From NCBI GenBank assembly GCA_961205875.1, contig OY540815.1, positions 6,324,001 to 6,388,000 on the forward strand: 64,000 nt of DNA, written 5' to 3'. A program made the translations under genes and the position numbers. This document shows positions 2,471 through 60,937 of the stretch, one piece after another; within the stretch, counting starts at the first letter, position 1; every line of letters begins with the position of its first letter. The DNA is from Sialis fuliginosa (Eukaryota > Arthropoda > Insecta > Megaloptera > Sialidae). The notes beneath the pieces are model-generated. The model was not told the origin of the DNA, did no database searches, and saw only the letters and a list, made by a program, of their open reading frames with translations.

Positions 2471-2890
2471 TTGTCCCTACATAAAACACAGTATATTCGT
2501 TCTTATCACCTCTCAAGTCTTTCAAAACGTTCAATTTATCAACGACTATCTTGGTGAAGAGCACATCACGTTTATAAAATACAGGTTTCTCGTTTTCATG
2601 AGTAACGGCTGCGTCCATGAGTGGGTGAGATCGTATGAAGTTCAGTACAGAATCTGGCAATGTCTCAGTGTCATTAACACAAGTCCCTGGCCTAGGTTCT
2701 GGGACCTTATTACTGAGTACAGGTAACCAGGCAGAGCTAGAAGAAGCCTGTTCTTTGAATTTTCCTTCAAAAGCACGTTGAATATCAGTTAAAGTGAACG
2801 TGCAGATCGCTGAGCCCTTAAGTCCGTTACTTGATGTTGTAAAAGTTCCATAGAATCGGTCAGTCTCACCTTTCATCTTGTAAATGCTCT
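2471..2890 (-). CDS. Sema2a: Semaphorin-2A exon: central sema domain
   Basis: Largest exon, covering visible residues 225-365. The acceptor is ttatag above 2890 and the donor GTAAGT below 2471. Recognisable Sema-2 stretches are FNEIQSIYKM across the upstream junction, GKFKEQ, SAWLPVLSNKVPEPRPGTC and LNFIRSHPLMD. These are the conserved propeller blades of class-2 semaphorins. The first 240 nt (2651-2890) are duplicated, inverted and without indels, at 60099-60338 inside a transposon. Confidence 0.96.
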
Positions 2891-2952
2891 CTATAAAATA
2901 ACAAACGGAATTAAGTACAACTACAGTAACAATGCACTAATGTTAGACTTAC

Positions 2953-3183
2953 GTATTTCATTGAAATAGAATGGAAACTCTCCAGGAATGGAACAGTTGA
3001 GCCTAGCCTTGAGATAAGTGGCCCAGTTCTGGCTGAGGATGTTTTTGCCGCCCGTGTCTTTCTTGCAGACGCGAGCTACTCGCGAGTATACGCTCTTGCC
3101 ACAGTTTATATACTCCACGGCTGTCTCGCGGAAGAAGAAGAATACGTATTGTCCGATATCAAAAGATCCAACGAAATTCGGTT
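2953..3183 (-). CDS. Sema2a: Semaphorin-2A exon: sema domain
   Basis: Codes visible residues 148-225 (231 nt). The acceptor is ttttag above 3183 and the donor GTAAGT below 2953. It contains [36 protein letters not shown] and [20 protein letters not shown], the most strongly conserved part of the sema propeller with its cysteines. The following intron is only 62 bp. The whole exon, that intron and 240 nt of the next exon reappear at 59806-60338 on the opposite strand. Confidence 0.97.
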
Positions 3184-3232
3184 CTAAAATGTATGATAAA
3201 ATCGTTATAGCATATTTACTTGCTAGGTAAAA

Positions 3233-3487
3233 CCTAGAGTCACTCCAGTAAGAGTCTTTACAGCGTTGTCTTTTTTAGCCAAAATCGACGTTTTAATAAG
3301 ATCATTTGTATGTTATTTTAAGCAAGTATAAAAAAAAAACCATTAAAATTGCACATAATGTAATAATATAAAGTATATTTAATGATATTGACTAATAATA
3401 TCAGAAAATACGACTGTGAGCGAGACTTGGCTAAATTACAATCAACCAAAAATCAATCCGAACTGTTCAGACTCTTATTGGAAACCG
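3233..3487. mobile_element. CCTAGAG-family MITE in Sema2a intron
   Basis: It begins CCTAGAGTCACTCCAGTAAG and ends with the related inverted end gactcttattggaaa. It lies about 50 bp above the acceptor of the exon at 2953-3183. A homologous copy forms the left part of the element at 59511-60385, in the same position relative to the captured exon. The MITE was therefore in this intron before the capture. A third member is at 26669-27219. Confidence 0.75.
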
Positions 3488-26668: not shown

Positions 26669-27219
26669 CCTAGAGATACTCCAGTAAGAGTTATGACAGC
26701 GTCGCCATTTTTAGCCAAACCGGTGGTGACGTGATTTATTCAAAAATTAATTTTTAGCAAGCATAAATTAAATTAACTTATGTCCGGTATTATAAAGGAG
26801 CTAGCAAAATTTGCTAGCTAGCAAACACTTTCAAATGAGGTTTCTAACCTATCTGACAGTTCTCCCTTAGTTTCATGAAATGTTTGACAAGTTTCGCGCA
26901 CGCGTGGTATGTAAACACCAACGGTATTAAAACAGTGGCGATATTATGAAAATTATTTTGTACGGTCAGAGTCGCCAACAATACGTTGAAGAATCACTGC
27001 TCTAAATTTCATAGATAATCCATAGATATTATCACAGAATTAATAGCCCATTTGAAATTTGCTAGCTCATTTATAATACCGGACATTAATGAACATAATG
27101 AAGTATATTTATTACCTGATTATAAAATCAGAAAATACAGTTATGGGTAAGACTTAGTTAATACAATCAACTAGAAATCGATTCGGGCTGTCAGAACTCT
27201 TACTACGATTATCTCTAAA
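26669..27219. mobile_element. CCTAGAG-family MITE with a nested element
   Basis: Ends CCTAGAGATACTCCAGTAAG and the inverted cttactacgattatctcta. It is related to the intronic copy at 3233 and the copy at 59511. Its centre is split by the element at 26781-27086. Confidence 0.7.
26781..27086. mobile_element. MITE with TGTCCGGTATTATAAA ends, nested
   Basis: Left end TGTCCGGTATTATAAAGGAG and right end ttataataccggaca are inverted. The adjoining gctagcaaa and tttgctagc extend the pairing. An internal block around ttgacaagtttcgcgcacgc has an inverted relative at about 61395-61530. Confidence 0.7.
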
Positions 27220-48648: not shown

Positions 48649-49293
48649 TAATACTATCATATTTATATTTGAATTGTATTTCTGTATTCCAAAAGTTTGT
48701 GAACCGCTGGGGTAATTTAAGACGTTAAAGCATAAATAAAAAATTTAAATATCAAAAACAAAATGCTCGATCAAAACGCTAAAACCCTTCTGCATATTAT
48801 AACGAGATTTATTCTTTCACCTGTTTTCCTTTATACGTAGAAACTTTCTTTAATCTTTATTTAGAATTTTAATTTGAAATATAATTTAATACTTTTTAAG
48901 TGAAAATATCGTCTTAGAGGGGCACCAGACCCTTTATAATACATTATTTGGTTTCATTAATAATTCAGGATATTCTAGGATTAAAAAGTTTTATCAACTT
49001 ACAAATTATTCATCCATTTTTAAAAGAAATACGTACTAAAATGGAAATATAAATTATACCAGAAAGATGTGAGAATTAATTGGATCCCTATATAAATAAA
49101 CAATATATTGTAGGACTTCTTTCTATATTTTAAAGAGGTTCAACTATAAGTGCCTATATTTAGATACAATTCTTGAGAGAAATGTATGTATACTTATTTT
49201 ATAAAATTTTAAGAAGGTATATTTTTATTTACGAAGAAAAATTTATGCTCTTATAAAAATATAAATTCAACAAAAAATATCTTTTAAACTTAC

Positions 49294-49356
49294 CTCTGAT
49301 TTTCCTTTGGACACACAGTTGGCAACGTTGCTTGGTTCTAGATTCAGCGAGTCTCT
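49294..49356 (-). CDS. Sema2a: Semaphorin-2A exon: sema domain, 63-nt microexon
   Basis: Encodes exactly 21 codons, RDSLNLEPSNVAN then CVSKGKSE, phase 0 at both ends. The acceptor is ttgttgcag above 49356 and the donor GTAAGT below 49294. The peptide ends in KGKSE and joins in frame to HFDCRNH of the exon at 6135-6242, as in insect Sema-2 proteins. It is too short for an ORF search and was found by splice-site and motif reading. It is the most 5' exon seen here; the remaining roughly 100 N-terminal residues were not found up to base 64000. Confidence 0.92.
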
Positions 49357-49558
49357 CTGCAACAAAAGTAATAATAACATATGAAAACCAGTAGCGTATA
49401 AAATTTTTTTACATTCAAATATTGTACTGTATGACAAATTTTAGTAAATAAAAATAAATAAATACGTGGTTATAACAGTATTAGGTCTATATGTCGACAT
49501 TTTGATGTAGAGAACGTATTAGATCGTAATTAAATTATAAAAAAATGGCTGATTAGAT

Positions 49559-49935
49559 CAGTGTTTCTCAAACTAATAACACGCGCGTGCCCCTTATAAT
49601 TTGGCAAAAATAAAAATACGAGACTTTCAGGGGTGCGGTGGGTGATACGTGGGGCGGACTTCAAGTGCCCCCCCCCCAAAGAAAAAAGTTAGTAAGTTTA
49701 TTTTTTGCACATTAAGCGGGTGACGTCTTCTGTGAACTTTTAATGACAAAAAAAATATTACTGATTTCTATTTTTTTAATATATTGAACGGTTATCACCC
49801 CTTATGAACTTTTAATGAAAAAAAAGTCAATTAGCTCTTTTTTTACAACTTTTAATCTCCTGGAAGATTCAAATAACCGAAAAAAGAGGTAAATAGTGGA
49901 CCGCAGCCCCCCACCCGCACCTAGCGACGCCACTG
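49559..49935 (-). mobile_element. hAT-like CAGTGGCGTCGC element, degraded
   Basis: The right edge, read on the minus strand, is CAGTGGCGTCGCTAGG. The interior matches the left part of 59196-59510 in the same order, for example ttttcggttattt then cttccagga then ttcataaggggtg. A different hAT-type end (CAGTGTTTCTCAAACT) is at 49559, so the piece may be a chimera. It lies about 200 bp upstream of the microexon. Confidence 0.65.
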
Positions 49936-59000: not shown

Positions 59001-59510
59001 GTGTAAAATAAATGTAAGAAAAAAATCAGAATTCGCACAAGACTAAGACGAAACCTAAGCTAAGTATCATCTCAAGTATCGTGAAATCGGAATTTTGGTA
59101 TCTACAAGACAAATGTACAAACTAATATACTATTAACATTAATACAATATACTTGCTTTGTGATTTTCATGACAATTCACACTGACACTCACTCACAGTG
59201 GCGTCGCTAAGGAGGAAGCGGTCCGGCCCGGGTGTCACCCTCAATGGGGTGTAATATGTTAATAAATAAAACCTATTTACCTTATTTTTTGGTTATTTTA
59301 AGCTTCCAGGAAGTAAAATGTGTAAACAAATTTTTTTTGGTTATTGAAAGTCTATAAGGGGTGTAATAACCATCCAATTTATTTAAAAAAAATTTTTTTT
59401 TTCTGTCGTTAAAAAAATCACAGGGGTCACACACCTAATGTGAATTTTTTGGCAGGAGGGTGAGTGGGTTGGCGATACTCTCGATTTACCTCCCGGATGT
59501 CACCCCTCTC

Positions 59511-60385
59511 CCTAGAGTCACTCCAGTAAGAGACTGGACAACGCGGATCGATTTTTGGTTGATTGTAGTAGCCAAGTCTCGCTCACAACCGTATTTTCTG
59601 GTATTATAAGTCAATATCATTAAATATACTTTATATTATTACATTATGTTCAATTTTAATGGTAATTTTTTATACTTGTTAAAATAACACACAAATGATC
59701 TTATTAAAACTCCGATTTGGTTAAGAATGGCGACGCTGTAAAAACTCTTACTGGAGTTTTACCTAGTAAGTAAATATGCTATAACGATTTTATCATACAT
59801 TATAGAACCGAATTTCGTTGGCTCTTTTGATATCGGACAATACGTATTCTTCTTCTTCCGCGAGACAGCCGTGGAGTATATAAACTGTGGCAAGAGCGTA
59901 TACTCGCGAGTAGCTCGTGTCTGCAAGAAAGACACAGGCAGCAAGAACATTATCAGCCAGAACTGGGCCACTTATCTCAAGGCTAGGCTCAATTGTTCCA
60001 TTCCTGGAGAGTTTCCATTCTATTTCAATGAAATACGTAAGTCTAACATTAGTGCATTGTTACTGTAGTTGTACTTAATTCCGTTTGTTATTTTATAGAG
60101 AGCATTTACAAGATGAAAGGTGAGACTGACCGATTCTATGGAACTTTTACAACATCAAGTAACGGACTTATGGACTCAGCGATCTGCACGTTTACTTTAA
60201 CTGATATTCAGCGTGCTTTTGAAGGAAAATTCAAAGAACAGGCTTCTTCTAGCTCTGCCTGGTTACCTGTACTCAGTAATAAGGTTCCAGAACCTAGGCC
60301 AGGGACTTGTGTTAAATACACTGAGACATTGCCAGATTGGTTAAAAATGGCTACGCTGTCGGGACTCTTATTGGAATGATTCTAA
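59511..60385. mobile_element. CCTAGAG-family element with captured gene fragment (Pack-MITE-like)
   Basis: Left end CCTAGAGTCACTCCAGTAAG. The right end, as complement, is TTAGAATCATTCCAATAAGA, clearly the same terminal repeat. From the left there is a complete MITE body (59511-59756), homologous to 3233-3487. Next comes 49 bp of Sema2a intron, then exon, intron and partial exon, then a second MITE end starting at 60339. A gene piece between two ends of one MITE family is the layout of transduplicating Pack-type elements. Confidence 0.8.
59806..60338 (+). pseudogene. Captured Sema2a exon pair with intron
   Basis: 59806-60036 corresponds to the 231-nt exon at 2953-3183, 60037-60098 to its 62-bp intron, and 60099-60338 to the first 240 nt of the exon at 2471-2890. 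All three lengths equal the originals, so there are no indels, and splice signals (tatag, GTAAGT, ttatag) are retained. A handful of replacements are seen, such as GGKNILS to GSKNIIS and LKGSAIC to LMDSAIC. The homology stops after LPD, where the frame runs into transposon sequence and a stop at 60377-60379. Inverted relative to the gene; no evidence that it is expressed. Confidence 0.93.
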
Positions 60386-60937
60386 CCCCCATTAACGACG
60401 CCATTGCTCACTCACTCACACTCACTCACGAAACAACAACAACTCGTTTAACTCGTCTTTATTTATCATCATTATTGATTTCTTTATTACCCTCAGTTTC
60501 TTCTCTTTGATAATAAGACAGTGCTGTATTATTTTCGCAGCACTGGGAGAGATGAAACAAGCGAAAGTCGTTAACGAAACTGCGTGAGCCTAAGGGGGGA
60601 GGGGTAAAGCTTAATTTACTAGTTAAATTTTGCTTTGTTTTGTTCCCGACGTGTCTATTTGTATGTGTTTTAATGGGGGAGATATGTGTGTATGAGAAAG
60701 AGAGGGTATGTTAAATCTGTAAGGGGGTTTTGTAAATTAAGTAGGTCTCTAATGAATGAGGTAAGTTTTTAGTAGAGGAAAAAATATCCATGTTTAATTA
60801 TGATGACACATACATGCACTTATGGGGGTCTGTTAGCTAATTTAGACTTTGTTTGTGATTTAGATCCCCGTTTTAGTATAAATAAAAATGTATAAAATAT
60901 GATAACTTGAGAAATTATGTCAGTCTTTTGAATATGC

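Follow-up and report, generated by a model that had tools for sequence, protein, structure and literature searches.

A fragment of a Sema2a-type gene, intron included, was found between two ends of one MITE family at 59.2-60.4 kb of the window (the whole 64,000-nucleotide stretch analysed, C7:6324001-6388000), nested in an outer hAT MITE and lying antisense within a ~64-kb intron of the very gene that donated it. The left MITE of this unit is a mosaic that passes from the sequence of another MITE into that of the donor within the ACGCTGT at 59733-59739, and the donor MITE accounts for the side, the orientation and the start of the copied DNA. The unit, a single-copy Pack-TIR (Pack-MITE), was most probably formed in place by template switching between MITEs, i.e. 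by gap filling, and the locus suggests that the copying was guided by an element next to the exons and that no transposase carried the exons away.

The copied gene stretch and its position

The donor gene lies on the minus strand, partly within the window, and its best PDB match is Drosophila Semaphorin-2A (6qp7_A, E 2.7e-109). Its donor stretch (2651-3231, minus strand) comprises part of exon B, a 62-bp intron, exon A and an intron tail, and the donor MITE lies beside it in the Sema2a intron (3235-3482, minus strand), truncated at its distal end; by eye, remains of its TSD were seen at 3227-3234 and 3482-3486 (GTAAAACC and AAACC). The copy holds 581 bp on the plus strand, namely 48 bp of intron tail (59758-59805, 2/48 differences from the donor), the 231-nt exon A with its frame open (59806-60036, 8/231), the 62-bp intron (60037-60098, 0/62) and the first 240 nt of exon B (60099-60338, 7/240). 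When 59758-60338 was aligned with donor 3231-2651, this gene part proved ungapped with 17/581 differences (97.1% identity, where at least 90% is asked of the parental copy of a Pack-TIR), and splice signals and reading frame were preserved. The earlier note had described a Sema2a exon, the 62-bp intron and 240 nt of the next exon without indels, which holds for the ungapped 581 bp; exon B is thus copied only in part, although the note's title speaks of two exons; the alignment to the donor that it proposed gave 93.3% identity over 832 aligned bases (59522-60338, plus strand, versus 3482-2651, inverted). Whereas a retrocopy has its introns removed, here the 62-bp intron is present and identical to that of the donor, which rules out an mRNA-derived copy and bears out the capture at the DNA level claimed earlier.

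A search of the 392-Mb genome (20 contigs) with the 533-bp copy as the query returned six matches, of which three were close, i.e. the copy itself, the donor (97%) and a second Sema2 gene (89%), while the remaining three reached 71-79% over 60-145 bp on other contigs; a second copy of the composite was not found by this search. The composite is single-copy, on the same chromosome as its donor; a mobile Pack-MITE would be expected at two or more sites, and a single copy besides donor and paralog was present in the 392 Mb. The paralog (L003, C7:6888447-6891977, also L023) is a compact plus-strand gene at ~6.889 Mb, ~0.45 Mb away, with 89-90% identity to the window gene in the two longest stretches that they share; it is without the MITE, and at the place of the window gene's ~64-kb repeat-filled intron it has one of about 60 bp. 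With the paralog as outgroup, five synonymous and four nonsynonymous changes among the 471 exon bases were assigned to the copy branch and two and one to the donor branch, two and one being unassigned, which is not enough for a verdict on selection. The copy's four own amino-acid changes affect residues common to donor and paralog and, few as they are, look like those of an unused copy; no sign of later mobility or function of the copy was found.

The ~64-kb intron is bounded by a Sema2a exon at 49275-49371 (minus strand; approximate, given by the alignment limits), and the next 5′ exon (DRVYRLNLSNISQSHCE) falls past the edge of the window, ~53 kb further on than the copy, at minus-strand positions that would be 113592-113645 in window numbering. 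This exon was found with a partly guessed query and is supported by the paralog exon and by both splice sites (TTACAG before, GTAAGT after); in the paralog, the counterpart of the 49275-49371 exon is preceded by an exon ending HCE. Since the two exons flank the copy, it sits inside the intron of its donor gene, in antisense, and not next to the gene as had been noted earlier. In this orientation sense splicing of the copy into Sema2a is impossible, and an unspliced Sema2a transcript would contain two complementary stretches ~56 kb apart.

The nested MITEs and the two joins

A hAT MITE forms the outer shell, of which the left part with the TIR CAGTGGCGTCGCTAA spans 59196-59512 and the right end TTAACGACGCCATTG spans 60385-60406 (both plus strand), flanked on both sides by the identical 8-bp TSD CTCACTCA (59188-59195 and 60407-60414). 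Its TIRs agree at 13/15 positions, as good as in 6 of 200,000 random pairs, and the nesting in a hAT-like element with an 8-bp duplication was thereby confirmed; the flank is a CACTCA-rich repeat with 8 identical among 1053 local 8-mer pairs, so the 8-mer alone is weak. The family is large (995 first-look candidates, 40 scored), and most aligned relatives finish with a C-rich run and then CTAGCGACGCCACTG-like sequence, except for L057 and the one at 49628-49935 of the window. The latter (minus strand) is a diverged relative with the TIR CAGTGGCGTCGCTAG, its other end set by eye, ~260 bp upstream of a Sema2a exon. The C-rich run near the right end of the outer MITE is the insertion point of the inner unit.

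The inner unit has the ends TAGAGTCACTCC...GGAATGATTCTA, and the 22-bp end motif matched the genome 171 times at two mismatches or fewer with none in the backwards control; 100 of the 171 matches were listed and 30 fetched. In 33 elements with two recognisable ends (46 loci examined), the flanking 8-mers agreed at no less than 6/8 positions in 21, eight of them at 8/8, and fell below 6/8 in 12. Because 21/33 elements have such 8-bp flanks, and the TIRs are short, the inner family is a hAT-type MITE. Helitron and piggyBac, considered because of the end motifs, were dropped in view of the 8-bp TSDs, as was a TA-type target site. The Buster group of hAT, for which PMC3517528 gives the TSD consensus nnnTAnnn in the part used here, was rejected as well, with TA at positions 4-5 of one or both copies in just 6 of the 21 good TSDs. 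An exact scan of viral contigs for the inner MITE end gave zero matches.

Five inner-family elements longer than 500 bp were present among the fetched loci (L024, L031, L039, L063 and L072). L031, L039 and L072 were rejected as further gene captures by the inverted repeats of their inserts, and L063 (about 55-558) by a hAT-like insert with CAGTGACGGAT.. ends and GTAAGAGT on both sides, as judged by eye. In L024 (1124-1386), the ~264-bp insert is without terminal inverted repeats and may be a second capture. A further member at 26669-27217 of the window carries a nested insert, seemingly bounded by TGTCCGGTATTATAAA-like inverted repeats by eye.

As the earlier note had it, the gene copy is bounded by two MITE ends, i.e. 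non-TE sequence lies between ends, each of at least 10 bp, of one TIR family: 59513-59739 and 60339-60384 (both plus strand) match the TAGAGTCACTCC family and are here called MITE'. No 8-bp TSD was found around MITE' or the composite unit (CCTCTCCC versus ACCCCCAT, 3/8, in a C-rich tract). The body at 59513-59739 does not derive from the donor MITE. The two MITEs are 88% identical, and the donor ranks only 31st by score among 40 scored matches, itself counted, the best other relatives among these reaching 92% at full length and 95% over 199 bp. Substitutions specific to the donor, counted against the consensus of 26 other inner-family members with gaps left out, were shared by the copy at 0/15 sites in 59522-59739 and at 2/2 in 59740-59756, a split with a chance of 1/136 if sites are treated as independent. 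The shared pair is an AA doublet directly after CGCTGT; the CGCTGTNNRRACTCTTACTGG end motif had 72 genome matches, among which AA occurs in two, the donor and the copy, and CTGTAA was absent from all 44 other family loci (42 elements). The doublet comprises two adjacent sites only, and each A occurs singly in 1/26 other members. The last donor MITE bases with the doublet occupy 59740-59757 (plus strand), after which ten donor bases, TGACTCTAGG, are missing.

Divergence from the donor changes along the copy as well. The MITE body differs at 23/217 sites (10.6%, gaps left out) versus 17/581 (2.9%) for the gene part (Fisher p 3.5e-5) and 2/110 (1.8%) for the two intron pieces (Fisher p 0.0036), sites again being taken as independent; purifying selection on the donor exons can partly explain the first contrast but not that with the introns. 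The MITE body and the gene part therefore do not have one common history. Together with the 0/15 and 2/2 counts, this places the switch within the ACGCTGT common to both MITEs (59733-59739, plus strand), and the locus is clean enough to define one switch point within 7 bp. Co-capture of the donor MITE with the exons, as the continuous alignment might imply, is ruled out by the 0/15 shared substitutions and by the donor MITE's rank. The copied DNA begins at the edge of the donor MITE, and its direction and orientation are those predicted by MITE-to-MITE copying.

At the second join, the exon B copy ends in ..GCCAGATT and is followed by the 46-bp MITE end GGTTAAAAATGG..TCTA (60339-60384), which repeats ~23 bp of 59717-59739 with two substitutions. 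This end has CG, not AA, after CGCTGT, and is therefore not the donor's. GGTTAA is common to both MITE' parts and was seen by eye at that position in 4/44 family loci, while an automatic count of GGTTA anywhere in the same stretches, flanks included, gave 7/44; the two parts differ at other sites. Microhomology, a mark of Pack-TIR breakpoints, was found at both joins, with the 7-bp ACGCTGT at the first and 2-4 bp at the second (TT, or GATT if one T slipped).

Probable template switching and its alternatives

In the course that we propose, MITE', a hAT-type element, would already have been present in the long Sema2a intron, inside the outer hAT MITE and close to the right end of the latter, when a break within MITE' was repaired, or when replication through it stalled at a fork; excision of MITE' might also have been the start. 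The growing strand would have left MITE' within ACGCTGT for the related, oppositely oriented MITE ~56 kb off in another Sema2a intron, copied the last part of that donor MITE and the whole 581-bp gene stretch from the intron tail to the 240th nucleotide of exon B, and then rejoined MITE' at TT (or GATT) ~23 bp upstream of its exit, which would leave ~23 bp present twice. The two switches may well have occurred in this order, both MITE' parts presumably belonged to a single element, and a separate, extra event would account for the loss of 10 bp at 59757/59758. Of the two routes offered in the earlier note, gap repair fits the switch within ACGCTGT and the rejoining at 2-4 bp; the other route, by way of a new MITE end and an old one, is unlikely because the copy's MITE body is not from the donor MITE (0/15), and a second genuine 46-bp end closes the unit. 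Against template switching, the two MITE' parts are not provably one element, the 10-bp loss is needed, MITE' is without a TSD (a lack that 12/33 family elements share, at below 6/8), the AA doublet is just two neighbouring sites and the second join may be of 2 bp.

Transposition would instead have a transposase use an outer MITE end together with a second MITE end near exon B, through end bypass or in an older allele with MITEs on both sides of the exons, and move the whole unit into the hAT MITE. Like a mobile unit, the composite does have two opposed MITE ends, but then its MITE body should descend from the donor's, with which it shares none of the 15 donor-specific substitutions; moreover, exon B of a conserved gene would have had to harbour a MITE, and the unit has no TSD (3/8) and is single-copy, which makes this origin improbable. 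Filler DNA is the other alternative: end joining or microhomology would by itself have brought the gene piece into a MITE' break, with the donor MITE adjacent by coincidence. Short microhomology can describe both joins, and Tan et al. 2021 (PMC8277862) report, in the sections used here, cases without a TE near the parent; nevertheless, the copied stretch opens with the donor MITE's own end, AA doublet included, and this end stands at the matching place and in the matching orientation of MITE', so we regard a coincidence as quite unlikely. An assembly artefact, or a larger segmental duplication trimmed later, is highly improbable given the nine exon changes of the copy's own versus the paralog, its location inside a hAT MITE with TSDs and the sharp homology edges, as the matches fall to 28/100 bases past 60338 and 26/100 left of 59511, both flanks being unrelated to the donor, so that the duplication beyond both MITE ends considered in the earlier note is absent.

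Beyond this locus, template switching leads to the tentative idea that dispersed MITE families might serve as homology landing pads, by which an exon beside an intronic MITE is copied, intron included, into a MITE of the same family. If this holds, such copying would repeatedly give rise to intragenic and antisense exon copies in insects, a source that filtering has so far hidden, and its product here, a 533-nt antisense copy in the gene's own primary transcript, could pair with the gene's own exons. Genome-wide, exon copies in MITEs would then be predicted to begin, always in one orientation, at the edge of a MITE that belongs to the same family and adjoins the parental exon.

Comparison with known gene-capturing elements

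Pack-MULE and Pack-TYPE elements are plant families, often multicopy and mobile. They resemble the present unit in carrying gene fragments in non-autonomous TIR elements (PMC13317346; see also PMC8903248). Turmoil-1 of C. elegans (Sela et al. 2008, PMC2572040) is likewise a DNA transposon with parts of two host exons and an intron; unlike our unit, it is a Harbinger element with the capture inside its inverted repeats and with several copies. Of its two donor genes, cpg-3 was seen by the authors to lack flanking Turmoil-1 sequence.

In insects, gene-fragment capture by Helitrons is mentioned in the abstract of PMC6544945, and no insect MITE case like the present one was found in the literature searched, mostly at title and abstract level, which is no proof of absence. 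The earlier note's remark that such capture is little described in insects stands in so far as Tan et al. 2021 (PMC8277862), in the sections considered, list no Pack-TIR in insect reference genomes, and needs qualifying for one polymorphic fly family, Ssk-FB4, and for older P-element work. Like our case, Ssk-FB4 of Drosophila melanogaster is insect gene sequence in a TIR element attributed to template switching (PMC8277862, same sections); it is multicopy and mobile with protein evidence, whereas the Sema2a unit is single-copy. The present locus adds an insect example of a Pack-TIR.

The closest likeness is to the animal Pack-TIRs of the gap-filling type. As far as the consulted parts of that survey go (Tan et al. 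2021, PMC8277862), 100 animal genomes yielded 370 Pack-TIRs, among which 208 were hAT, and most single-copy cases were attributed to transposition-independent gap filling, with a cis bias, breakpoints inside the element and short microhomology (at the breakpoint in 67.6% of cases). Like them, our unit encloses non-TE DNA between the two ends of a single TIR element, is of hAT affiliation and single-copy on the same chromosome as its parent, and has microhomology at the joins and a switch inside the element. It differs in that the two breakpoints lie at a median of 4.6% of the element apart in the survey, whereas ~23 bp of the element are present twice here, and in that most nearby cases in the survey are <15 kb from the parent, versus ~56 kb here. 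What is known of animal genes captured by cut-and-paste elements comes mostly from this one survey, which left out any parental copy that had a TE within 100 bp and whose Methods, in the part used, state that linked cases may be missed (PMC8277862). The donor MITE abuts the copied stretch, so this locus is such a TE-flanked case; the exclusion is a filter of the survey and does not belong to the mechanism. Gap filling itself is known in animals, and what is new here is an insect Pack-TIR seeded by a same-family MITE that directly flanks the parental exons, with one switch inside that very MITE.
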